Shown here one piece after another: positions 6,156 through 18,506 of a DNA stretch of 64,000 nt; within the stretch, counting starts at the first letter, position 1; each line of letters begins with the position of its first letter. Where the stretch lies: positions 1,054,001 through 1,118,000 of the forward strand of contig NZ_CP069620.1 in assembly GCF_026109735.1 (NCBI RefSeq). Reading direction: 5' to 3'. The position numbers and the translations under genes are program-made. The notes under the pieces are model-generated. The model was given only the letters and a program-made list of their open reading frames with translations. It had not been told where the DNA came from and did not search any database. Source of the stretch: Salinimicrobium tongyeongense (GTDB taxonomy: Bacteria; Bacteroidota; Bacteroidia; Flavobacteriales; Flavobacteriaceae).

Positions 6156-6941
6156 CTAGCTCCGAATTGGGGAATTTAGATATTCATTCTCTTTGATCAC
6201 ACTTTCAAAAAGAGCCTGTAATTTTGGCCTTTCGTTTACTACATCTCCAATGACGATAATCGCCGGAGAGGAGAGTTTCTTTTTTAAAACCACTTTTTCG
6301 ATATCCCGGATGCGGCCAAAGCCGGACTTCTCATTCACGGTAGTTCCATTTTGAATGATCGCCACGGGTGTATCTTCTCTTCCGAAGTGACTGAAGATAT
6401 CCACGATCTCGTGCAGTTTCCCCATTCCCATCAGGATGACAACGGTAGCGGTTGATTGAGCCGCAAGCCGGACATCTTCTGAAAGTTTTCGCTGAGTAGT
6501 AGTTCCCGTAATCACCCAAAAACTTTCAGAAACTCCCCTTTTTGTAAGGGGAATGCCCGAAGCTGCCGGCACAGCAATAGAAGAAGTCACTCCCGAAACC
6601 ACGGCGGTCTCAAGCCCACGGCTCCTGGCATAATCAATTTCTTCAGAACCACGCCCAAAGATAAAAGGATCGCCACCTTTTAATCGTACCACATGGCCGC
6701 GTTCCCGGGCATATTTCACGATCAGATCATTAATTTCATCCTGGGAATAGTAGTGACTGCCTTTACGCTTCCCTACAAAAATATGTTCTGCCTGGGGTGC
6801 ATAATCCAGTAATTCTCTGTTGATAAGGGCATCGTATAATACCACATTGGCTGCTTTCAAAGTATTCACAGCTTTAATGGTGATCAATTCGGGGTCTCCC
6901 GGACCAGCACCTACTACGCTTAATTTTGGTTCATTATACAT
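6156..6941 (-). CDS. cobA: uroporphyrinogen-III C-methyltransferase
   Basis: S-adenosylmethionine-dependent methyltransferase making precorrin-2 for siroheme. The 261-aa protein begins MYNEPKLSVVGAGPGDPELIT, a classic SUMT N-terminus, followed by VRLKGGDPFIFGRG and a PVAIIQNGTT segment. I chose the ATG at 6941, where this motif begins, over the longer in-frame start at 6968. The chosen start overlaps the sulfite reductase stop by 8 nt, indicating translational coupling. Confidence 0.92.
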   Translation of the reverse strand: MYNEPKLSVVGAGPGDPELITIKAVNTLKAANVVLYDALINRELLDYAPQAEHIFVGKRKGSHYYSQDEINDLIVKYARERGHVVRLKGGDPFIFGRGSEEIDYARSRGLETAVVSGVTSSIAVPAASGIPLTKRGVSESFWVITGTTTQRKLSEDVRLAAQSTATVVILMGMGKLHEIVDIFSHFGREDTPVAIIQNGTTVNEKSGFGRIRDIEKVVLKKKLSSPAIIVIGDVVNERPKLQALFESVIKENEYLNSPIRS

Positions 6942-9027
6942 TTTGCACCTCCTTTGTTCTATAAGCATCTACCCGCTTAAGGAATAGCTGCGCGTCCTCT
7001 AAATATTTTTTTGCAAATTCTTCTGTGGGTTCATGTTCATTCATTTGATAAACAAAGTCTTTAAAAGAAGTGGATAATTCTATTTTTCCCGGCTCCACGA
7101 AAAGTTCATCAAATTGGGCTATGATCCCCGCCTGGGTATTGGTAGCAACATTTTCAGACAACAACAAAGCCTTGGCCGAATTCACCAGTGAAGAATAGGA
7201 ATGGTAAATACTGTCTGACCATACTTTTCTCTCAAGGGCAGTTTGTGCATTCTGTATTTTCTCATCGCTTTCAAACAACAGGGTAGCGATAAGGTCAATG
7301 ACCACTCCCGCACATTCGCCTACTCCCACCGCCTTGATGTATGGTTGCGTGTGGCCCCAATCGACAAGATCTTCAGAAGTAGTTGTGCTGGTATCTGAAA
7401 GATCCTTGAGCAGGTCATAGAAATAGGTTTTCCCCTGCCGGTCGTAGTAACTCACAAACTTTTCATCTCTTGCAGAATTTTTCTCAAAATCATTCAGCAG
7501 CAATCTCAGTGCCTGCGGTCCGCGTTTGCTGGGCACTTTTATCACTTTATCTGCAAACCTGCCTTCGCCGTCTCCAAGGGTGCCACCGCCGAGCAATACC
7601 TGCAGGGCCGGGGCTACTGTTTTACCCACTTTTATCGACATTCCCTGAAAACCTATCTCGGCCATGTTGTGCTGGCCACAGGCATTCATACATCCACTTA
7701 TTTTAATGGTAATATCACGGCCATTCACAAACTGCGGATATTCTTCTTTCAGAACATCTTCCAGTACATCGGCAATCCCCGTACTACTGGCAATGCCGAG
7801 GTTACAGGTATCTGTTCCGGGGCAGGCGGTGATATCAACGGTTTTATTATATCCGGCTTCTGCCAGACCTAATTCTTTTAAACGAGTATAAAAGAACGGC
7901 AGCAAGTCTTCCCGTACGTGACGTATCAAAATATCCTGCCTTAGCGTAAATCTAAGTTCATTGCCTGCATAATCGCTAATAAGATCGGCCAGTTTTCTTG
8001 CTGCCCCGGTATAGAAATCTCCCAGCGGCACTCTCACGCCAACAGCAAACAAACCTTGCTGTTTTTGGGCAGCTACATTGGTGTTTCTCCACTCCTCATA
8101 GGCTTTTCGATCCTCAATAATTACTTCCGGAATTTCCACTTTTGGAAGGTCTGGCTCCTCTTTAAAAGCTTCGAGATCAAAGTGCACAGCTTCCTTTGAA
8201 AGAGCAGTTTGCTGCTCTTCCACCAGCTCCATAAAAGCTTCTTTCCCTATATCTTTAATAAGATATTTCATTCTGGCTTTCATCCTTTTTGCACGCTCCC
8301 CGTGACGATCAAACACTCTCAATACTCCTTCTATAAGCGGAATAATTTTCTCTGCCTCCAAAAAGTCGAAGAGTTCATCGGCGTGTCGCGGCTGGGAACC
8401 GAGTCCGCCGCCGAGCATAACCTTGAATCCGCGTTTCCCGTCTTTTATTTTGGCGATAAATCCGAGGTCGTGGATATAACTCAGCGCCGTATCTTCTTCT
8501 GAAGCCGAAAAGGAGATCTTGAATTTCCTACCCATTTCCTGGCAGATGGGATTCCGCAGAAAAAACTGGAAAGCGGCATGCGCATAGGGTGAAACATCAA
8601 ATGGTTCCTTCACATCAATTCCTGCTGTTGGTGAGGCCGTGATGTTACGCACCGTATTCCCACAGGCTTCGCGAAGAGTGATATCATCTTTTTCCAGCTG
8701 CGCCCACAACTCGGGAGTCCTATCCAGGCTTACATGATGTATCTGTATATCCTGCCGGGTGGTGATATGCAATCTTCCGGTAGAATATTCATCGGAAACA
8801 TCGGCTATCCGGTGTAACTGCTGAGAGGTAACCTTCCCAAAAGGCAATTTTATACGTACCATTTGAACACCTGCCTGGCGTTGCCCGTAAACCCCGCGGG
8901 CTAGCCTGAGACTCCTGAACTTTTCTTCATCTGCCTTTCCTTCCCTGAACAACCTGATCTTTTTTTCAAGGTCAATTATGTCCTGTTGTACAATGGGGTT
9001 CTCTATTTCGGTTCTAAAACTTTGCAT
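6934..9027 (-). CDS. sulfite reductase hemoprotein with C-terminal HEPN-like domain
   Basis: 697-aa NirA/Sir-type ferredoxin-dependent reductase. Two ferredoxin-like half domains alternate with siroheme/4Fe-4S domains. The cluster ligands are visible as CPGTDTC near residue 400 and CMNAC near 446. Residues from about 555 to 697 are not part of standard sulfite reductases; this helical region (TQPYIKAVGVGECAG, then YHSYSSLVNSAKALLL) resembles the HEPN-type extension seen in Bacteroidota homologues. Genes for siroheme synthesis and a ferredoxin reductase follow, and cysH precedes it by 31 nt, supporting sulfite over nitrite as substrate. Confidence 0.88.
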   Translation of the reverse strand: MQSFRTEIENPIVQQDIIDLEKKIRLFREGKADEEKFRSLRLARGVYGQRQAGVQMVRIKLPFGKVTSQQLHRIADVSDEYSTGRLHITTRQDIQIHHVSLDRTPELWAQLEKDDITLREACGNTVRNITASPTAGIDVKEPFDVSPYAHAAFQFFLRNPICQEMGRKFKISFSASEEDTALSYIHDLGFIAKIKDGKRGFKVMLGGGLGSQPRHADELFDFLEAEKIIPLIEGVLRVFDRHGERAKRMKARMKYLIKDIGKEAFMELVEEQQTALSKEAVHFDLEAFKEEPDLPKVEIPEVIIEDRKAYEEWRNTNVAAQKQQGLFAVGVRVPLGDFYTGAARKLADLISDYAGNELRFTLRQDILIRHVREDLLPFFYTRLKELGLAEAGYNKTVDITACPGTDTCNLGIASSTGIADVLEDVLKEEYPQFVNGRDITIKISGCMNACGQHNMAEIGFQGMSIKVGKTVAPALQVLLGGGTLGDGEGRFADKVIKVPSKRGPQALRLLLNDFEKNSARDEKFVSYYDRQGKTYFYDLLKDLSDTSTTTSEDLVDWGHTQPYIKAVGVGECAGVVIDLIATLLFESDEKIQNAQTALERKVWSDSIYHSYSSLVNSAKALLLSENVATNTQAGIIAQFDELFVEPGKIELSTSFKDFVYQMNEHEPTEEFAKKYLEDAQLFLKRVDAYRTKEVQNV

Positions 9028-9058
9028 TTCTTTTCTCTTTAAGATTTATATCAGGTAA

Positions 9059-9688
9059 TCAGGTGTGTAAACCACATTCCCGGTTGCTTAACGCCTTGGT
9101 GGGATCAAAATATCTGAATTCGTTGGGGAGGTTATTTTCAACAAGATATTTGTCCAGCTTTTCGTCACTCCAGTGGTAGAAAGGACTCACTTTTAATATT
9201 CCGTCTTTGCTGTAACTCAAAATGCCAATACTATCCCGAAAAGCAGTTTGTCCTTTCCGCAAATTGGTAAACCAAACATCGGGCTCATGCTCCTGCATGG
9301 CGCGTTGAAAAGGCTCGAGTTTTACCTGCCGGGTAAACTCGGCATGGTTGGGATCATCTACCTGGGGTATGCCCTCAAAAATGGCATCTCTATAGGCAGC
9401 TGTTTGAAGAGGCATATACAACTTCACATTGAGGTTCAGCTTGTCTATAACTTCTTTGGCATGCCTGTAGGTTTGGGGCGTATTATAGCCGGTATCACAC
9501 CAAATCACTTTTATAGTGGGCAGGATATCTACACAGGCGTGAAGTATAGCTGCTTCATAAGGCCTGAAGTTGGTAGTGACCACCGGACGGTGGCAATTAT
9601 CGATCACCCATTGAATTACTTCTGCGGGCGGAATCCCCTGTAAGTGCCTGTTAAAATTTTCAAGCTCTTCTTGTGTAAACTTTTTCAT
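9059..9688 (-). CDS. cysH: phosphoadenylyl-sulfate (PAPS/APS) reductase
   Basis: Reduces activated sulfate to sulfite. The 209-aa protein has the PP-loop-like N-terminal half (VVTTNFRPYEAAILHACV), the VIWCDTGYNTPQTYRHA segment, and ends in the hallmark ECGLHT whose Cys is the catalytic nucleophile. The extra paired cysteines that bind a 4Fe-4S cluster in APS reductases are not evident, which favours the PAPS type. The start at 9688 (MKKFTQEEL) was chosen over 9721; it lies 2 nt after the DUF2061 stop. No cysD or cysN lies nearby. Confidence 0.85.
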   Translation of the reverse strand: MKKFTQEELENFNRHLQGIPPAEVIQWVIDNCHRPVVTTNFRPYEAAILHACVDILPTIKVIWCDTGYNTPQTYRHAKEVIDKLNLNVKLYMPLQTAAYRDAIFEGIPQVDDPNHAEFTRQVKLEPFQRAMQEHEPDVWFTNLRKGQTAFRDSIGILSYSKDGILKVSPFYHWSDEKLDKYLVENNLPNEFRYFDPTKALSNRECGLHT

Positions 9689-9690
9689 AT

Positions 9691-9942
9691 TTATCCCTTT
9701 CCAAAATTGATCTTGTTCCATATTCTTTCGTGTCCAAAGTAGAGCAGCATCTTAGTGATCACTTCTACCGTTCCTATTGCCAGTGCCGTCTTAATTTCCC
9801 CGGTTAAGAACCAGGATACAAGTATGGTATCCAGGGTTCCTATAATTCTCCAGCTTATTGCTTTAGCAATGCTCCGTACCGGCTTTTCTGAAGCCTTTTC
9901 TTTCTTTTCACTTCTCCTGGAGAATACCCGATCTAATATCAT
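9691..9942 (-). CDS. DUF2061 small membrane protein
   Basis: 83-aa protein with two predicted membrane segments (about residues 30-45 and 53-68) and the family core KAISWRIIGTLDTI. DUF2061 genes commonly sit at the head of sulfate-assimilation operons in Bacteroidota, as here directly before cysH (2-nt gap). Function is unknown. A palindromic site at 9958-9982 lies just upstream of its start, so this is probably the first gene of a cys transcript. Confidence 0.85.
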   Translation of the reverse strand: MILDRVFSRRSEKKEKASEKPVRSIAKAISWRIIGTLDTILVSWFLTGEIKTALAIGTVEVITKMLLYFGHERIWNKINFGKG

Positions 9943-9957
9943 AATCCTTATTTTAAT

Positions 9958-9982
9958 CCTATTACCCTATCGGAATAGTAGG
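9958..9982 (-). promoter_or_regulatory. imperfect inverted repeat upstream of the cys genes
   Basis: CCTATTA and TAGTAGG flank an 11-nt centre (one mismatch), 16 nt upstream of the DUF2061 start. The right part shares GGAATAGTAG with a second site at 15167-15176, just upstream of metY. Only these two copies were noticed next to sulfur genes, and an Rrf2 regulator gene lies between them, so it is a candidate operator. Protein and effect are unproven. Confidence 0.4.
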
Positions 9983-10063
9983 TTATTAGACAAAGAAAAT
10001 AAAATATTTTCCTAAATCGGCTGTTGTGACCGATTATTTACATTTTAATTAACTGCGTGCCTG

Positions 10064-10477
10064 TTATTGTTTTGTGATATCGGCTAGGGTATTATTGCCC
10101 AGCACCTTCAAAGTACTGTCCCGCACCTGTATCATAAGCTGGTGCACAGAGCAGGTCACCTCATCCTTGCAGTCATCGCATTTCTCATAGTAGTTAAGGC
10201 TCACACAGGGCACCATGGCTATAGGCCCTTCCAGGATCCTTATCACGGCCGTCATTGGGATCTCAGCCGGGTTTTTGATGAGATAATATCCTCCTCCCTT
10301 GCCCTTTTTGGCACCCAAAAATCCTGCTTTGCGCAGTTGAACCAGAATACTTTCCAAAAATTTATGGGAGATATTCTCACTTTCGGCGATCTCTGAAGTT
10401 TGCACAGGTTTCTTTGCCGGCTGCCTCGCAATGTAGGTAAGGGCTTTTATCCCGTATTTTGTCTTTTTTGAAAGCAT
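10064..10477 (-). CDS. Rrf2-family transcriptional regulator with cysteine cluster
   Basis: 137-aa winged-helix regulator starting MLSKKTKYGIKALTYIARQ, the usual Rrf2 N-terminus; the longer in-frame start at 10552 was rejected for that reason. The HTH is around residues 25-50, followed by the GxGGGY wing (AKKGKGGGYYL). Near residues 95-115 it has C-x8-C-x2-C-x5-C, a possible Fe-S or metal site as in IscR/NsrR relatives. It lies between the methionine and sulfate-reduction genes, 81 nt after metZ, suggesting control of sulfur assimilation (inference). Confidence 0.85.
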   Translation of the reverse strand: MLSKKTKYGIKALTYIARQPAKKPVQTSEIAESENISHKFLESILVQLRKAGFLGAKKGKGGGYYLIKNPAEIPMTAVIRILEGPIAMVPCVSLNYYEKCDDCKDEVTCSVHQLMIQVRDSTLKVLGNNTLADITKQ

Positions 10478-10558
10478 AAGGCGAAGATAATTATTTATCT
10501 TCTTTCTATGCTGCGAAATCCTCCTCTCCCGTTTCTGCTGAATTACTCCCATTTCCTT

Positions 10559-11728
10559 TTATTTTTTCAGGTTTAAAGCATTTTGTAAATCGGCATAAAT
10601 ATCCTGCCAGTGCTCAAGTCCTACCGAAATCCTCACCAGGCCGGGAGTAATCCCGGCTTCCAGTTTGTCTTCTTCTGAAAGCCTGCCATGCGTGGTTGAC
10701 GCCGGATGGGTGACGATGGTCCTGGTGTCTCCCAGGTTGGCGGACCTGGAGCAGAGTTGTAAGTTGTCTATGAATTTCCTCCCTGCTTCCAATCCTCCCT
10801 TTATTTCAAACGAAATGATATTGCCGCCCAGCTTCATTTGTTTCTTTGCCACCTCATATTTAGGATGGGATTTCAAAAAGGGATATTTCACATTTTCGGC
10901 ATTTTCTTCCTTTTCCAAAAGTTCAGCTATTTTCAGGGCGTTCTCACAATGCCTGTCAAGCCTTACCGGCAGCGTCTCCAGGCTTTTTGACAGGATCCAG
11001 GCATTGAACGGGGATAAAGCCGGACCAGTATTACGTGAGAACAGGTAAATTTCCCTTATCAGGTCTGCGCGGCCAACAGTCACGCCGCCAAGCACCCGGC
11101 CCTGCCCGTCCATTAATTTGGTGGCCGAATGTATCACCAGGTCGACACCAAATTTAATCGGGTTCTGCAGGTAAGGCGTGGCAAAACAGTTGTCTATAAT
11201 AAGCAGCAGGTTGTGCTTTTTGGCTATTCTTCCCAGGTTTTCCAGATCCAGAATATCCACCCCCGGATTTGTAGGAGATTCGGCAAACAAAATCTTCGTT
11301 TCCGGCTTTATGAGGCTTTCGATTTTCTCCTCTTCGTGAACATTAAAGTAGCTGTGCGAAATGTTCCACTTCGGAAAATACTTAGTAAAAAGGCTGTGGG
11401 TTGATCCAAAAACAGATCTTGATGATACAATGTGATCGCCGCTGTTTAGAAGACTGGCCAGTGTGGAATACACAGCCGACATGCCCGAGGCAAAAGCGAA
11501 ACCTGCCTCTGCACCTTCCAAAAGTGCCACTTTTTCAGCAAATTCTGAAGTATTGGGGTTGCTAAACCTGCTGTATATATTTCGTTCCTTTTCTTCAGCA
11601 AAAGCAGCCCTCATTTCTTCGGCATCTCCAAAAACATAACTTGAGGTGAGAAAAAGCGGAGACGAATGCTCCTGGTACTGTGTGCGCTCCAGTTGGGTAC
11701 GAACTGCCTGTGTTTCTATCTGTGACAT
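10559..11728 (-). CDS. metZ: PLP-dependent homoserine-ester sulfhydrylase / gamma-synthase
   Basis: 389-aa Cys/Met-metabolism PLP enzyme. The PLP lysine is in HSATKLMDGQGRVLGG near residue 203, and the C-terminal THPASTTHGRLS motif is conserved. It resembles O-succinylhomoserine sulfhydrylase (MetZ) most, but cystathionine gamma-synthase cannot be excluded from sequence alone. It is the second such enzyme in the operon after MetY, separated from hom by 10 nt, so the operon may support both direct sulfhydrylation and another gamma-replacement reaction. Confidence 0.82.
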   Translation of the reverse strand: MSQIETQAVRTQLERTQYQEHSSPLFLTSSYVFGDAEEMRAAFAEEKERNIYSRFSNPNTSEFAEKVALLEGAEAGFAFASGMSAVYSTLASLLNSGDHIVSSRSVFGSTHSLFTKYFPKWNISHSYFNVHEEEKIESLIKPETKILFAESPTNPGVDILDLENLGRIAKKHNLLLIIDNCFATPYLQNPIKFGVDLVIHSATKLMDGQGRVLGGVTVGRADLIREIYLFSRNTGPALSPFNAWILSKSLETLPVRLDRHCENALKIAELLEKEENAENVKYPFLKSHPKYEVAKKQMKLGGNIISFEIKGGLEAGRKFIDNLQLCSRSANLGDTRTIVTHPASTTHGRLSEEDKLEAGITPGLVRISVGLEHWQDIYADLQNALNLKK

Positions 11729-11738
11729 AGCCTTGTTT

Positions 11739-12809
11739 TTATAATTTTTCTGCTAATTGAAGAATATCCGAGACCACTCCCCTGGCCGTTACTGCTGCCC
11801 CGGCACCGGCTCCCTGTATCACCAGCGGCCGTTCTCCATACGATTCGGCGTAGATCTCAAAAGAAGAATCGGCATGTTTAAGTGCCCCAAAAGCTGAAAA
11901 TTTCTTCTCTTTTACCAGCTTCACTTCAAGCGTTCCCAGGGCAACATTCAGCTCTCCCACGTGCCGAATCACTTCGTCCTGCCCAAGTTCCTTCTTCAGG
12001 TTGAGAAAAACCGGATCGAGGTCTTTCTTGTTTTTCTGAAATTCCTGTAAAGTAGACTGCCCGTTAAGATGCACCGGCACCAGGTCTTGAATGTCAATTT
12101 CTTCAAATTCTTTCTCCAGCCCCAGCTCCCTGCCCAGAATGAGTAATTTCCTGGCCACGTCTTTCCCCGAAAGGTCAACCCGCGGATCGGGTTCGGTAAA
12201 GCCTTTCTCTCCGGCTTCGGCAAGAACTTCAGAAAAAGCTTTATCCTCATCACAATAGGTATTGAAAATGTAGCTGAGAGAACCCGAAAATACACCTCTT
12301 ACCTTTGTCACCCGCTCGTTTGACCTGTGAAAGTTGCGCAGCGTTTCCACAACTGGCAAACCTGCACCCACGTTGGTCTCATAAAAGAAATGCCTGTTGT
12401 GCTCCTGCAATTTTTTCCGCAGCCCCGCATAAAATTCTGAAGAGCGGGTATTTGCCACTTTATTGGCCGCAACTATGTGAAAACCGGCCTCAATGAGCTC
12501 AAAATATTTGTCTACAAAATCTTCACTGGCCGTTGCATCTACGGCAATGAGGTTTTCATAGCCCTGCTTTTTCACGTATTCCAAAATATCATCAAGTTTG
12601 TACGCAAAGCCCAGAGTGTTGAGATCGGCTTCCCAGGAGGGCTGCTGATTCTCATTTTGAAAATATGCCCTGGTAGAATTGGCAATTACCGGAAGGTTGA
12701 GCTCTACTCCTTCTTTCTGGCGCAGCGATTCGCGGGCCTCCAGCAATTGTGCTACCAGTTTACTCCCTACGTTACCGGTTCCAAACAGGACTATATTTAT
12801 TTTCTTCAT
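11739..12809 (-). CDS. hom: homoserine dehydrogenase
   Basis: Converts aspartate semialdehyde to homoserine, the shared precursor of Met and Thr. The 356-aa protein begins MKKINIVLFGTGNVGSKL (Rossmann fold) and carries NKVANTRSSEFY and the family signature GFTEPDPRVDLSGKDVARKLLIL. It lacks an aspartokinase domain and an ACT domain. The start at 12809 matches the Rossmann motif and overlaps the end of metX by 38 nt; 12821 is an alternative. Its place behind Met/Cys leaders suggests a methionine-dedicated isozyme. Confidence 0.9.
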   Translation of the reverse strand: MKKINIVLFGTGNVGSKLVAQLLEARESLRQKEGVELNLPVIANSTRAYFQNENQQPSWEADLNTLGFAYKLDDILEYVKKQGYENLIAVDATASEDFVDKYFELIEAGFHIVAANKVANTRSSEFYAGLRKKLQEHNRHFFYETNVGAGLPVVETLRNFHRSNERVTKVRGVFSGSLSYIFNTYCDEDKAFSEVLAEAGEKGFTEPDPRVDLSGKDVARKLLILGRELGLEKEFEEIDIQDLVPVHLNGQSTLQEFQKNKKDLDPVFLNLKKELGQDEVIRHVGELNVALGTLEVKLVKEKKFSAFGALKHADSSFEIYAESYGERPLVIQGAGAGAAVTARGVVSDILQLAEKL

Positions 12810-13785
12810 TATGAGTGACATTTTGTTTAAAAATGGGGGTTAGAATTTGTGACAGTTGCTCGTATTCAATAAGAAAAGCATCGTGCCCGTGAATTGATTT
12901 GATCTCGTGATACTGTATATTTTTTTTCTCTTCGGAAAGCTCCCTGTAAGTTTCCCTTACTTCCTGCGGAAGAAAAAACAAGTCGGAATCTATCCCAACC
13001 AAATGGATATTCCCGCTGATGGTTTTTGCGGCGGCTGAAGGTTTTTCCCTGCCTCCCGAAATATCTATTGTGGTGAGCAGGTGGTTCATGAGCTTGTATG
13101 ATGCAAGTTCATAGCGTTCCTCCAGCTTCCTGCCGTGATGGCTCAACCAGTTGGCAACTTCAAACTGGGCGTTTTCCTCATTCTTTTTTCTTCGGAATTT
13201 TTCAGAAAAAGAGGCCGGGGTCCTGTAAAAGGTCATGGCATGCATTCGCGCATCGTGAATGGGATCTGCCGAATTGTTAAGGATCTGGTCCTGCACCTTG
13301 CACTGCCCCAGCACCCAGTCGGTCGCTTTGAGGTCGGTCGCGATAGGCACAAGGTTCTCGATAAGGTTTGGTTTAAGAGCTGCCAGGTGCCAAACCAGGG
13401 CTCCGCCTATAGACCCGCCTATGGCCGCAAAAAGTTTATCAATATTCAACTTTTCAAGCACCAGCGAAAATAGGCGGGCCACATCATCGAGGTTAAACTC
13501 GCTGTAGTTGTGCAACAGCTGCCTTTTTTCCCCACCTGCGCCATTGCCGGGCACATTGATCGCCAGGACCGTGAATTTATTGGTGTCAACGCACTTTTCG
13601 GGGCCAATAAGCTCCTTCCACCACCCTGTCTCTCCCGAAACATCGGCATTGCCGGTGAGGGCATGATTTACCAGCACCACCGGTGCCGTGCCAGTTTCCC
13701 TTCCAAAAATGCGATAAAACACCCGTATTTCCTGAAAGCTGCCGGCTGAATTTTGAAAATGTGGAAATATGATCTCCTGTAACAT
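12772..13785 (-). CDS. metX: homoserine O-acetyltransferase
   Basis: 337-aa alpha/beta-hydrolase-fold acyltransferase that activates homoserine for sulfhydrylation. Visible motifs: NHALTGNADVSG (oxyanion-hole region), nucleophile elbow GGSIGGA with Ser near residue 123, IDSDLFFLPQ carrying the catalytic Asp, and SIHGHDAFLIE carrying the His. The elbow has Ile where most MetX proteins have Met. It lies 54 nt downstream of metY, whose enzyme uses its product. Confidence 0.9.
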   Translation of the reverse strand: MLQEIIFPHFQNSAGSFQEIRVFYRIFGRETGTAPVVLVNHALTGNADVSGETGWWKELIGPEKCVDTNKFTVLAINVPGNGAGGEKRQLLHNYSEFNLDDVARLFSLVLEKLNIDKLFAAIGGSIGGALVWHLAALKPNLIENLVPIATDLKATDWVLGQCKVQDQILNNSADPIHDARMHAMTFYRTPASFSEKFRRKKNEENAQFEVANWLSHHGRKLEERYELASYKLMNHLLTTIDISGGREKPSAAAKTISGNIHLVGIDSDLFFLPQEVRETYRELSEEKKNIQYHEIKSIHGHDAFLIEYEQLSQILTPIFKQNVTHNEENKYSPVWNR

Positions 13786-13839: not shown

Positions 13840-15144
13840 TTAAACAGATTTCACATTCTTCTTTGAAACAGCCGCAGCCAGTGCCTGTTCTAAATCGGCT
13901 TTGATATCTTCGAGATCTTCAAGGCCTACAGACAGTCTTACAAGATCTTTGGTTACGCCGGTAGATTCCTGCTGCTCATCATTGAGTTGCTGGTGAGTGG
14001 TACTCGCCGGGTGAATGATCAGGGATTTGGTGTCACCAATATTGGCCAGCAGGGAGAAAAGTTTGGTCTCATCAACCAGTACCTTTGCGGCTTCATACCC
14101 GCCCTTTACGCCAAAAGTGATAAGGCCGCTTTGCCCTTTTGGAAGGTATTTTTGAGCCAGTTCATAGTATTCGCTCGTTTCCAGCCCCGGATAGTTCACC
14201 CAGCTCACTTCCTCTTTTTGCTGAAGCCATTTTGCCAGAGCCAGAGCATTCTCGCTGTGCTTTTTGATCCTGATCTCTAAAGTTTCCAGTCCCTGAATAA
14301 TTTGAAAAGCATTAAACGGACTCAGCGCGGCACCAAGATCCCGCAAGCCTTCAATCCTTACTTTTGCTATAAAGGCCGCTTCTTTTAAAGCCTCGTGGTA
14401 AACCAGGCCGTGGTACCCGGGAGAAGGTTCGGTGAACTCAGGGAACTTGCCGTTGGCCCAGTCGAATTTTCCGGCATCTATGATGACTCCACCCAAAGAA
14501 GTTCCGTTACCGCCAATGTATTTGGTAAGGGAATGAATTACAAGGTCGGCCCCGTGTTCAATAGGCTTTACGAGTGCTGAAGTCGCTACCGTATTATCAA
14601 CAATAAATGGCACTTTATGCGCTTTGGCTACTTTAGAAATGGCGTCGAGGTCAAGCACGTCCAGTTTCGGGTTTCCCAGCGACTCGGCAAATACCGCACG
14701 GGTGTTCTCTTTAACTGCATCGGCAAAGTTTTGTGCGTCCTGTGGATCTACAAAAGTAGTGGTGATCCCCAGCCTTGGCAGGGTGACACTTAAGAGGTTA
14801 TAGGTGCCTCCATAAAGGCTGCTGGAAGCTACAATATGATCTCCGGCTTTAAGCAATGTGAGCAGGGTGGTGCTGATAGCTGCAGTTCCCGATGCTGTTA
14901 CCACAGCCGCAATCCCACCTTCGAGGGCTGCCAGTCTTTGTTCCAGTACATCGTTTGTAGGGTTGTTCAACCGGGTATAGATGAATCCGGGTTCTGCCAG
15001 GGAGAAAAGATTCGCAGCGTGGTCTGAATCTTTAAACACATAAGAAGTAGTTTGGTAAATGGGAACTGCTCTTGTGCCTCCATTTGCTGTTACGTCATGT
15101 CCTGCATGCAGGGCGTTGGTCGAAAATTTTTGTACTGTACTCAT
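13840..15144 (-). CDS. metY: O-acetylhomoserine aminocarboxypropyltransferase
   Basis: 434-aa PLP enzyme making homocysteine from O-acetylhomoserine and sulfide. The PLP lysine lies in HSLTKYIGGNGTSLGG near residue 207, with the long insert after it (KFPEFTEPSPGYHGL) typical of MetY rather than MetB/MetZ. The C-terminus has HPASTTHQQLN. It is first in the metY-metX-hom-metZ-rrf2 run and directly follows the two leader-peptide attenuators at 15441-15799, so it should be off when Met and Cys are plentiful. Confidence 0.92.
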   Translation of the reverse strand: MSTVQKFSTNALHAGHDVTANGGTRAVPIYQTTSYVFKDSDHAANLFSLAEPGFIYTRLNNPTNDVLEQRLAALEGGIAAVVTASGTAAISTTLLTLLKAGDHIVASSSLYGGTYNLLSVTLPRLGITTTFVDPQDAQNFADAVKENTRAVFAESLGNPKLDVLDLDAISKVAKAHKVPFIVDNTVATSALVKPIEHGADLVIHSLTKYIGGNGTSLGGVIIDAGKFDWANGKFPEFTEPSPGYHGLVYHEALKEAAFIAKVRIEGLRDLGAALSPFNAFQIIQGLETLEIRIKKHSENALALAKWLQQKEEVSWVNYPGLETSEYYELAQKYLPKGQSGLITFGVKGGYEAAKVLVDETKLFSLLANIGDTKSLIIHPASTTHQQLNDEQQESTGVTKDLVRLSVGLEDLEDIKADLEQALAAAVSKKNVKSV

Positions 15145-15437: not shown

Positions 15438-15440
15438 GTT

Positions 15441-15477
15441 AAAAAAAATCCCTTTGGCTGGCTTGCCAAAGGGATTT
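15441..15477 (-). terminator. second Met/Cys attenuator terminator
   Basis: On the minus strand a perfect 13-bp stem (AAATCCCTTTGGC / GCCAAAGGGATTT, loop AAGCCA) is followed by eight T. It lies 32 nt after the second leader peptide stop. The end of the leader gene contains GCCAAA (15520-15515), complementary to TTTGGC of the 5' arm, giving a possible antiterminator. Confidence 0.9.
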
Positions 15478-15508
15478 TTAGTACTCAATATATAACTAAC
15501 TTAGATCC

Positions 15509-15589
15509 TCATTTTTTGGCAATAGCTGGTGGGGCGCACATCATGCACATCATCATACAACACATTATCATGGCTACTGCTTTATACAT
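15509..15589 (-). CDS. Met/Cys leader peptide 2 (26 aa)
   Basis: A 26-codon ORF with residues 7-18 reading MIMCCMMMCMMC: eight Met (including the start) and four Cys in the peptide, then APPAIAKK and a stop. An A-rich stretch precedes the ATG. The stop is followed within 35 nt by a strong intrinsic terminator, and the last codons (GCC AAA AAA) hold the segment that can pair with the terminator 5' arm. This is the pattern of a ribosome-sensed attenuator responding to charged tRNA-Met and tRNA-Cys. Confidence 0.88.
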   Translation of the reverse strand: MYKAVAMIMCCMMMCMMCAPPAIAKK

Positions 15590-15624
15590 TTTTCTTTTTT
15601 TATCTATCAAACTCAATTCTGAAA

Positions 15625-15655
15625 GAGGTGTCAAAAATGCCATTTTTGGCACCTC
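15625..15655. repeat. dispersed CAAAAATGSCATTTTTG palindrome, copy 1
   Basis: 31-bp near-perfect palindrome with GAGGTG and CACCTC outer arms. It lies inside the Met leader transcript, between terminator 1 and leader 2. One of 13 intergenic copies in the window. Confidence 0.85.
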
Positions 15656-15678
15656 AGCTTTTTAATTTTTACTGCAAC

Positions 15679-15706
15679 AAAAAAGCCGCTGCGGTGGCAG
15701 CGGCTT
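15679..15706 (-). terminator. first Met/Cys attenuator terminator
   Basis: On the minus strand a perfect 10-bp GC-rich stem (AAGCCGCTGC / GCAGCGGCTT, loop CACC) followed by six T, 24 nt after the first leader stop. CGCTGC in its 5' arm can pair with GCAGCG (15751-15746) in codons 15-16 (A-A) of the leader. Confidence 0.88.
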
Positions 15707-15730
15707 CTTGCAAATTTTATCTTTTCAGGA

Positions 15731-15799
15731 TCATGCAATAGGACGCGCTGCGGAAGGTTTCCACATCATGCACATCATATTACAAATTACCTGGTTCAT
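15731..15799 (-). CDS. Met/Cys leader peptide 1 (22 aa)
   Basis: A 22-codon ORF; residues 6-12 read CNMMCMM, followed by W13 and the tail KPSAARPIA. Five Met and two Cys codons cluster in its first half. The codons for A15-A16 (GCA GCG) contain the predicted antiterminator segment. It is the first of two tandem leaders of similar design but clearly different sequence, so the second is not a recent copy. Confidence 0.85.
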   Translation of the reverse strand: MNQVICNMMCMMWKPSAARPIA

Positions 15800-15818
15800 T
15801 TCTCGTTTTGTTCTGTCA

Positions 15819-15850
15819 CAAAGTTAACGACAGAAAATTCATTTCTCCAA
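15819..15850 (-). promoter_or_regulatory. promoter of the methionine leader-operon
   Basis: On the minus strand a perfect TAACTTTG -7 box (15826-15819) with TTG 21 nt upstream (15850-15848). The predicted start near 15811 is about 12 nt before leader 1. Confidence 0.65.
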
Positions 15851-17124: not shown

Positions 17125-17137
17125 CTGCTGATAAATC

Positions 17138-17187
17138 ACAGGGAAAAATTTGACTGATTGCAACCCTCTAAAATGCTAAAGCAGTGA
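17138..17187 (+). promoter_or_regulatory. SAM-II riboswitch aptamer
   Basis: Matches the SAM-II pattern: AGGG (17140-17143) pairs with CCCT (17164-17167); the loop carries ATTTGACTGATTGCA; ACTG (17153-17156) can form the pseudoknot with CAGT (17182-17185) after the conserved GCTAAAG. SAM-II RNAs are known in Alphaproteobacteria and Bacteroidota upstream of methionine genes. AAAAATTTGAC (17144-17154) is perfectly complementary to GTCAAATTTTT (17208-17218), suggesting a competing structure that is excluded when SAM is bound. Confidence 0.85.
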
Positions 17188-17219
17188 CAACTTCTCTAGC
17201 GCTTCCTGTCAAATTTTTT
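17185..17219 (+). terminator. possible riboswitch-controlled terminator
   Basis: TGACA (17185-17189) and TGTCA (17207-17211) flank a 17-nt loop and are followed by AATTTTTT. The stem is short and weak. Its 3' side overlaps the sequence able to pair with the aptamer, so it may form only when SAM stabilises the aptamer. Confidence 0.4.
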
Positions 17220-17249: not shown

Positions 17250-18506
17250 ATGCCATATTTATTTACTTCAGAAAGTGTTTCTGAAGGCCACCCCGATAAA
17301 GTTGCCGACCAGATTAGCGATACCTTACTTGACAATTTTCTCGCTTTTGACCCCGAATCTAAAGTTGCCTGCGAAACCCTTGTTACCACCGGGCAGGTGG
17401 TGCTTGCGGGTGAGGTAAAGAGCGACACCTACCTGGATGTGCAGTCTATTGCCCGCGATGTGATCAACGATATTGGTTACACCAAAGGGGCCTATAAATT
17501 TAGCGGGGACTCCTGCGGGGTGATTTCTTTGATCCACGAGCAATCCCAGGACATAAGCCAGGGCGTTGACCGCGGAAACAAGGAAGAACAGGGCGCGGGC
17601 GACCAGGGAATGATGTTTGGTTACGCCACTAAAGAAACTTCTAACTACATGCCGCTGGCCCTGGATATTTCCCATAAGATCTTAATCGAGCTGGCAAAAC
17701 TGCGACGCGAAAATGACGACATCACTTACCTGCGGCCCGATTCAAAGAGCCAGGTAACCATAGAATACAGTGACGACAACGTGCCACAGCGCATTGTGTC
17801 TATCGTGGTCTCTACCCAGCACGACGAATTTGATGAAGATGACCAGCGAATGCTGGAGAAGATAAAAAAGGATATTATCGAGATCCTTATTCCGAGGGTG
17901 ATCGAACAGCTTCCAGAGTACGTTCAAAAGCTGTTTAACGACAAGATCAAATACCACATCAACCCTACCGGAAAATTTGTTATTGGCGGGCCTCACGGAG
18001 ATACCGGCCTTACCGGAAGAAAGATTATCGTAGATACTTACGGCGGAAAAGGTGCTCACGGCGGGGGCGCATTCTCGGGGAAAGACCCAAGTAAAGTAGA
18101 CCGTTCAGCGGCTTATGCGGCAAGGCACATCGCCAAAAACCTAGTGGCTGCAGGAGTGGCCGATGAGGTGTTGATACAGGTTTCTTACGCCATTGGCGTG
18201 GTAGAACCCACCTCTCTGCTTGTGGAAACCTACGGCACCAAAAAAGTAGACATCAGCAACGGGGAGATCGCAGAAAAAGTGCTGGAGATCTTTGACATGA
18301 GGCCTGCTGCCATTGAAGACAGGCTGGGCCTTAGAAATCCTATTTACAGGGAAACCGCTGCCTATGGCCACTTCGGAAAAGAGCCGCGCAAAGAAAGAAA
18401 GATCTTTAAGAGCCCCTACAACGGAGAAAAGACCATTGAAGTGAACCTGTTTACCTGGGAAGAACTCGATATGGTTGACAAGGTAAAAGAGGCTTTCAAA
18501 ATATAA
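17250..18506 (+). CDS. metK: S-adenosylmethionine synthetase
   Basis: Makes SAM from methionine and ATP. The 418-aa protein has the N-terminal [20 protein letters not shown] motif, the GAGDQG loop ([15 protein letters not shown]) and the [22 protein letters not shown] phosphate-binding signature. Length is normal for Bacteroidota. It stands alone, 63 nt after a SAM-II aptamer, so its expression should fall when its own product is abundant. It sits 2.1 kb from the divergently transcribed methionine operon. Confidence 0.96.

Follow-up and report, generated by a model that had tools for sequence, protein, structure and literature searches.

Two putative ribosome-mediated attenuators in series, with Met/Cys-rich leader peptides, upstream of the metY operon in Salinimicrobium

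The window, a stretch of 64,000 nucleotides of Salinimicrobium DNA, carries on its minus strand (15837-15439) a Bacteroidota-type promoter sequence followed by a short leader (MNQVICNMMCMMWKPSAARPIA), a 10-bp terminator, a second leader (MYKAVAMIMCCMMMCMMCAPPAIAKK), a 13-bp terminator and the genes metY-metX-hom-metZ, after which come genes of sulfate assimilation. This arrangement very probably represents two ribosome-mediated transcription attenuators in series before a methionine and cysteine biosynthesis operon. Comparison of related sequences gives good support for methionine sensing by both attenuators, and cysteine sensing by both is probable. The -7 box, two leaders, two terminators and a palindrome that had been listed in a preliminary description of this DNA were all recovered at minus-strand positions. 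Its proposal of two checkpoints sensing charged tRNA-Met and tRNA-Cys is retained as the best-supported reading with regard to the serial arrangement and the Met/Cys control codons, but its cysteine part can be called probable only.

The putative promoter contains a -7 box (TAACTTTG, 15819..15826, minus strand, as all features of the leader region below) that matches the TAnnTTTG-type consensus of the Bacteroidota housekeeping promoter. The sequence around this box, TTTCTGT(C/T)GTTAACTTTG, was kept in 9/9 aligned genus sequences, and TAnnTTTG is given as the promoter consensus in passages of PMC9723704. Leader peptide 1 (MNQVICNMMCMMWKPSAARPIA, 15731..15799) is an ORF with orthologous frames in relatives; its control codons are ATG ATG TGC ATG ATG (15764..15778), the Cys codon being TGC or TGT depending on the species. 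Each leader was found to comprise segments that can pair alternately to form a protector (1:2), an antiterminator (2:3) and a terminator (3:4). In leader 1, segment 1 is TGTAATA (15778..15784), assigned as the partner of segment 2 by the pairing tests and a three-way change in locus L089. Pairing tests identified segment 2, which consists of GCAGCG (15751-15746) and TATTGCA (15740-15734) and spans 15734..15751, and segment 3, which consists of TGCAA (15712-15708) and CGCTGC (15702-15697) and spans 15697..15712. Terminator 1 (segments 3:4, 10 bp) and its T run occupy 15679..15706, with the hairpin at 15706-15683; in the alignment of 23 species all its cells were paired, and a single species accounted for the two pairs that were changed on both sides.

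Leader peptide 2 (MYKAVAMIMCCMMMCMMCAPPAIAKK, 15509..15589) is likewise an ORF with orthologous frames, and an in-frame alternative start is present at 15643. Its control codons MIMCCMMMCMMC lie at 15536..15571. Segment 1 (GCAGTAGC, 15573..15580) is able to pair with GCTATTGC of segment 2, segment 2 (GCTATTGCCAAA, 15515..15526) was assigned by the pairing tests, and segment 3 (TTTGGCAA, 15463..15470) is the 5' arm of terminator 2; one pair of the 2:3 helix is G-C, G-U or A-U across species. Terminator 2 (13 bp) with its T run extends over 15439..15477, the hairpin being at about 15477-15446; 96% of its cells were paired in the 23-species alignment and five pairs were changed on both sides. The protector segment had been missed by the preliminary description and is clear in leader 1 and weaker in leader 2. 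The 6-nt segments GCAGCG and GCCAAA that it had placed 13-16 nt after the last control codon, as able to pair with the terminator arm, start at 12 nt (GCAGCG) and 15 nt (GCCAAA). Between the attenuators lies a 14-bp palindrome (15625..15655), which displayed a terminator-like score on the plus strand; its conservation was partial even inside the genus.

In the proposed mechanism, RNA polymerase would start at the TAACTTTG promoter and a ribosome would follow on leader 1. When Met-tRNA (and Cys-tRNA) is charged, the ribosome would reach the stop codon and cover segment 2, the terminator 3:4 would form and transcription would stop. At low charging, as predicted for Met/Cys starvation, the ribosome would stall on the AUG/UGY run, 2:3 would pair before segment 4 is made and the polymerase would pass. 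Leader 2 would then repeat the same choice. This scheme is similar to that of the trp/his/phe-type attenuators in its short control-codon leader, its 1:2, 2:3 and 3:4 pairings and the amino-acid operon downstream, and differs from it in the Met/Cys control codons, in the presence of two complete units in series and in its occurrence in Flavobacteriaceae. Since the control codon AUG is also the start codon, starvation should affect initiation as well, and an attenuator of this kind is unexpected. The ribosome would need to be close behind RNA polymerase, which makes coupling directly testable in Bacteroidota, a phylum mostly without Shine-Dalgarno sites.

The genes downstream of the leaders, all on the minus strand, are in agreement with the control codons, as profile matches identified both Met and Cys genes. 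They start with metY, an O-acetylhomoserine sulfhydrylase (13840..15144; TIGR01326, 661 bits, cut-off 495), followed by a metX-like homoserine acyltransferase (12772..13785), whose best model, TIGR01392, scored 192 bits and thus under the cut-off of 500, hom, a homoserine dehydrogenase (11739..12821; PF00742, PF03447), and a metZ-like sulfhydrylase (10559..11728; PF01053), whose best model, NF006003, reached 512 bits, just under the cut-off of 522. After metZ, genes for an Rrf2 regulator, a DUF2061 protein, a cysH-like PAPS reductase, a NIR/SIR reductase and a uroporphyrinogen-III C-methyltransferase are found (6156..10552). The downstream genes mostly overlap or sit close together, with the exception of a 121-nt gap before DUF2061, and this spacing suggests that those at 6156..10552 may be co-transcribed. 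The only Rfam match at gathering score in the window was a SAM-II riboswitch (17134-17189, plus strand) directly before the divergent metK (17250-18506), and this genome would therefore rely on SAM sensing at metK and on leaders at metY.

The genus sample consisted of 12 genomes, nine of which were aligned, and the promoter box, both leaders and both terminators were kept in 9/9 of the aligned ones. A diverged tandem pair was present in G001 (L017), and in G002 the pair was located on a separate contig (L137). For G011 neither a metY match at 1e-100 nor a match to the leader pattern was obtained. Elsewhere in the genus, pattern matches (L041, L048) fall inside genes and were taken as chance. 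The same order of parts was observed in 14 further species (seven Gillisia, two Salegentibacter and five Christiangramia), and the same tandem precedes metY also in more distant Flavobacteriaceae. It has to be considered that one attenuator does the work and the other is a relic or a tuning element, as single-leader loci (3/64 named loci, including L062 on a cut contig) and degenerate copies in Gillisia might indicate. This is improbable, given that control codons, terminator and alternative pairing were retained by both leaders in 23/23 species, belonging to four genera. Two functional units in series are thus favored.

Conservation of the Met/Cys frames had been put forward beforehand as the test on which the attenuator reading could fail. 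The frames were kept: Gillisia, Christiangramia and distant genera differ in nucleotides and yet maintain the Met/Cys runs. The order within the run varies (MMCMM, MCMMM, MMRKMM, MMMRMMM). In the leader 2 run, alignment gaps are multiples of three; past the run the frame shifts (AIAK vs RYCQK) and the DNA, GCTATTGCC, is mostly kept. Conservation of the peptide tail through peptide function was ruled out by this frame shift with the pairing DNA kept. The same observations bear on the idea that the nascent Met/Cys chains serve to bind metals such as copper or to sense the redox state. Short Met/Cys-rich peptides can indeed bind copper, but Met and Cys vary in order and spacing, the tail shifts frame over unchanged DNA and the neighbouring genes are Met/Cys genes, all of which makes such a role very improbable.

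Specificity was evaluated by shuffling and by an opposite-strand control. An ORF with at least 5 Met/Cys per 10 residues was present in 31/105 regions upstream of metY, a set in which a few genomes were counted twice, compared with 4/525 dinucleotide-shuffled regions. On the opposite strand, 0/105 loci had a unit of ORF and terminator with a Met/Cys run. Based on the shuffles and this control, a chance origin of the leaders was rejected. The search for Met/Cys ORFs plus terminators upstream of metY that had been suggested earlier was productive, yielding 103 leader-terminator units at 60/134 loci, 43 of these with two; 29 loci of this set had been chosen via model R1 or R2, and one genome was included twice (L024 = L149). 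The simple ORF-plus-terminator rule and two covariance models also locate additional cases. No such Met/Cys ORF was found within 1500 nt upstream at the 25 named loci with SAM-I.

The alternative pairing was analyzed in several ways. No 2:3 covariation beyond shuffles was detected on the 23-species alignments for either leader. For leader 1, no 2:3 pair was changed on both sides in the MAFFT alignment, GCAGCG being invariant in the 23 species, and the TTGCA part was 81% paired and partly misaligned. For leader 2, three pairs were changed on both sides, a count reached by 71/500 shuffles, and no measure was above the shuffles. Since alignment counts were uninformative for 2:3, region-wise tests were used instead. 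Among 103 elements, the 2:3 duplex had a mean of -16.3 kcal/mol with its own partner, -9.9 with segment 2 shuffled and -9.3 with a dissimilar partner, and in 73 of them the own pairing ranked above at least 95% of swaps. In 24/103 elements the 2:3 pairing did not exceed 95% of the shuffles, including leader 2 of the window, for which 10% of shuffles were as good, and in 5 elements more than 20% of shuffles matched it. As relatives are not independent, the permutation tests were repeated on unlike representatives; with 37 of these the 2:3 means were -16.2 (own) and -11.0 (permuted), and 0/1000 permutations were as good. The 1:2 pairing of first or only leaders gave 0/1000 permutations as good both with 52 elements and with 20 unlike representatives. 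The second part of the leader 1 antiterminator (TTGCA:TGCAA) was matched by 1/1000 permutations with 52 elements and by 161/1000 with 20 unlike representatives, and thus loses its support when close relatives are thinned out.

Individual loci illustrate the coordinated changes. The leader 1 segments generally read TGYAATA (covering the C and N codons and the initial A of the ATG that follows), GCAGCG...TATTGCA and TGCAA...CGCTGC. In L089 three segments changed together, AACAATA/TATTGTT/AACAA taking the place of TGYAATA/TATTGCA/TGCAA. Segment 2 of leader 2 (GCTATTGCC) is partnered by TTTGGCAA in Salinimicrobium and by GGTAATAGC in Christiangramia and Salegentibacter. At distant loci the entire 2:3 helix has been replaced and is still complementary, for example CGCAAAGG:CCTTTGCG in L106 and CAGAGGC:GCCTCTG in L097. 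The 1:2 pairing was weak in L010, L153 and L157.

Full-length equilibrium folding with ribosome blocks gave the terminator in every state and no discrimination, which implies that the switch must be kinetic. As this approach was uninformative, it was replaced by the folding of transcripts cut before segment 4, averaged over the control codons in 23 species and with an assumed E. coli-like footprint. With a stalled ribosome, the mean number of expected 2:3 pairs was 15.9 for leader 1 and 18.3 for leader 2. With the ribosome at the stop codon it decreased to 0.5 and 1.1, respectively, a drop that is partly due to the assumed footprint. The stalled value was higher than the stop-codon value in 23/23 species for both leaders. 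The spacing fits the mechanism under the same footprint, as segment 2 would be left free by stalling and covered once the ribosome has reached the stop codon. An exception was seen in some second leaders of Christiangramia, whose last control codon is too near segment 2 to free it.

In the absence of a ribosome, 1:2 was favored over 2:3 in 19/23 first leaders (mean of 3.0 2:3 pairs) and in 4/23 second leaders (mean of 17.4), 70% of the 1:2 alignment cells of leader 2 being paired. An untranslated leader 1 transcript would thus mostly fold as 1:2, which suggests that its terminator is the default; 1:2 of leader 2 is weaker. Due to this difference, stalling raised 2:3 over the untranslated state in 22/23 first leaders and in only 11/23 second leaders. 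It may tentatively be proposed, with considerable doubt, that the two units form a gate, in which leader 1 terminates when untranslated and leader 2 tends to antiterminate. As Met is also needed for translation start, the operon would open when ribosomes initiate but stall on the Met/Cys codons, and would shut when initiation collapses. If true, this would solve the paradox of a methionine attenuator and offer a natural readout of how transcription and translation are coupled in Bacteroidota.

Met was the constant residue: no leader of the 43 tandem loci lacked it in its dense window. Cys was absent from this window in 4/43 first leaders and 5/43 second leaders. Cys is thus common but variable, and its sensing is probable rather than shown. 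The mechanism could also operate with Met-tRNA charging alone, the Cys codons being tolerated and in part dictated by RNA pairing, as with the TGC of segment 1 in leader 1. Besides the constancy of Met and the leaders that lack Cys, the replacement of the control-run Cys by Arg (CGT) in L012, L059 and L089 is in line with this. So are the residue-pair counts, in which Met+Ile and Met+Cys scored 30 loci each, indicating that Met drives the signal. A Met-only sensor is nevertheless unlikely. The Cys content was 9.4% in ORFs picked by Met alone compared with 2.4% in other short ORFs, a fourfold enrichment that also holds on only the 105 loci picked by MetY similarity, and at least three Cys were found in the window of 29/43 second leaders. 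Moreover, in L160 (1500-3147) the genes for serine acetyltransferase and cysteine synthase (cysE-cysK) are preceded by a Met/Cys leader (CNMCCMM). In the Christiangramia locus L108 (11867-11991) a third, Cys/Met leader (TICYMCMCYSPHT) with a terminator stands directly before sulfite reductase, and L070 (11862-11991) has a third leader of the same kind (TICYMCMCYSPHT), also with a terminator and probably before sulfite reductase; the R2 score was weak in both. Sensing of both amino acids is accordingly the reading preferred here, with cysteine as its probable component.

In bacteria, the control of methionine genes is commonly attributed to SAM riboswitches, T-boxes or repressors. No Rfam family reached the gathering score in the metY leader, and a permissive scan returned sub-threshold matches only. 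A SAM riboswitch was therefore rejected for this leader, no Rfam SAM model matching at gathering score, and so was a T-box, which was absent among the Rfam matches. In related lineages, the SAM-I riboswitch (RF00162) occupies the same place before the same genes, from which a so far undescribed riboswitch that binds a metabolite such as SAM could be envisaged, the ORFs being incidental. This is extremely improbable, since no Rfam family was matched at gathering score and the conserved parts are a coding run and interchangeable complementary segments, with no fixed aptamer. SAM-I differs from the leaders in that it senses SAM via an aptamer.

The distribution of both elements was determined on 64 named metY loci (L049-L111 and L114), 16 of the 80 named loci (L112, L113 and L115-L128) being left out as they belong to other phyla. 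SAM-I was present in 25, two leaders in 22, one leader in 3, neither in 14 and both in 0. One locus tallied as neither, L096, has a weak R1 match just before metY. On the MetY tree at least 9 label changes were needed, compared with 31 for shuffled labels. In the family sample 270/397 genomes had a metY match, and the best 150 matches were divided into 30 loci and 120 others with 900 nt upstream. Among these best 150, SAM-I was found in 107/120 upstream regions (56/60 + 51/60) and in 10/30 loci, and the other 20/30 had leaders (for G002 on another contig). SAM-I is thus the commoner state in this sample, and leaders replace it in a minority. One of the 13/120 regions without SAM-I among the best 150, L213, had a plausible single leader, and an R1 match was found in 0 of these 13. 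The L213 leader (MIPVMKKIMCCMNDRGS), with no SAM-I, lies about 600 nt before metY, and its end (GGGGGAGTTAAAAGG) looks complementary to the terminator arm by eye. The SAM-I regions L205, L241 and L242 passed a lax ORF filter; a Met/Cys run like the others was absent from them.

SAM-I was not found upstream of metY at the scanned leader-bearing loci. In L024, L028, L146 and L152, leaders stand at metY, and SAM-I lies between metY and the following gene. The position of the leader element at the SAM-I site of relatives suggests that, within one family, the same gene has had one feedback RNA swapped for another, with charged tRNA sensed in place of SAM. Upstream of metX in L084 (11037-12258) and L138, one or more leader attenuators are followed by SAM-I, so that two types of putative sensor are placed in series; Met/Cys codons are sparse in the first leader of L084, which scored weakly with R1.

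With R1, 80/397 genomes of the family gave a match at E up to 0.001. The best 30 of these family loci comprised 25 before metY, one before metX, one before metZ, one at a contig end, one at another gene and one with neither leader nor met gene. Outside the family, nine genomes matched at E up to 1e-4. Eight of the matches were chance-like (terminator only), and one (L163, 1477-1780), from another family of the same class, is a real-looking Met/Cys leader with a terminator before a NIR/SIR gene.

The mechanism itself is classical. Tandem units with Met/Cys leaders and terminators, and their exchange with SAM-I, were not found described and, together with the lineage, are considered a new variant. 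According to passages of PMC2965389, leader-peptide systems had as of 2010 been shown only in Proteobacteria and Actinobacteria, and sensing systems are exchanged at the same gene. For Streptomyces lividans, the parts of PMC8079986 considered here propose eight leader peptides, of which one, metL, would depend on methionine; it has 29 residues ending in CMCRRMCAF and lies before metNIQ, with no typical Rho-independent terminator. This metL is likewise a proposed methionine attenuator mixing Met and Cys, but it precedes a Met importer, is single and leaderless, and lacks a typical terminator or, in those passages, an alternative pairing. The preliminary description had called tandem Met/Cys attenuators unusual. 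This stands for the tandem with terminators, but a Met leader peptide as such had been proposed earlier, in S. lividans and without a clear terminator. Apart from it, no Met or Met-Cys leader attenuation was found among the matches listed by title and abstract opening, subscription papers being outside this scope.

Actinobacterial cysteine leaders are described in passages of PMC1262725 as having no conserved terminator hairpins, with no RNA structures before methionine operons. They share the runs of Cys codons ahead of Cys genes and differ from the present leaders, which have terminators and alternative pairings. Membership in this terminator-less class was rejected, as terminators are present at the flavobacterial leaders. 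Within the same family, strong clues of leader-peptide attenuation before amino-acid biosynthesis operons have been reported for Flavobacterium psychrophilum in passages of PMC9723704, whose section 19 gives pheA, hisG, alaS and others as conserved 5' elements and, in contrast to the operon studied here, names no met or cys gene. Passages of PMC7366714 mention short ORFs of B. thetaiotaomicron that are leader-like.

Additional copies were also observed. A second tandem copy is present in four Gillisia loci (L057:10710-11048, L058:10780-11118, L105:10799-11131 and L055:5727-6063); most of its Met/Cys codons have been lost, and in L057 it precedes a second hom gene. In L145 (1516-1706) and L088 (2357-2577), Met/Cys leaders are found ahead of a long ORF, which on the basis of a motif we take to resemble a TonB-dependent receptor.
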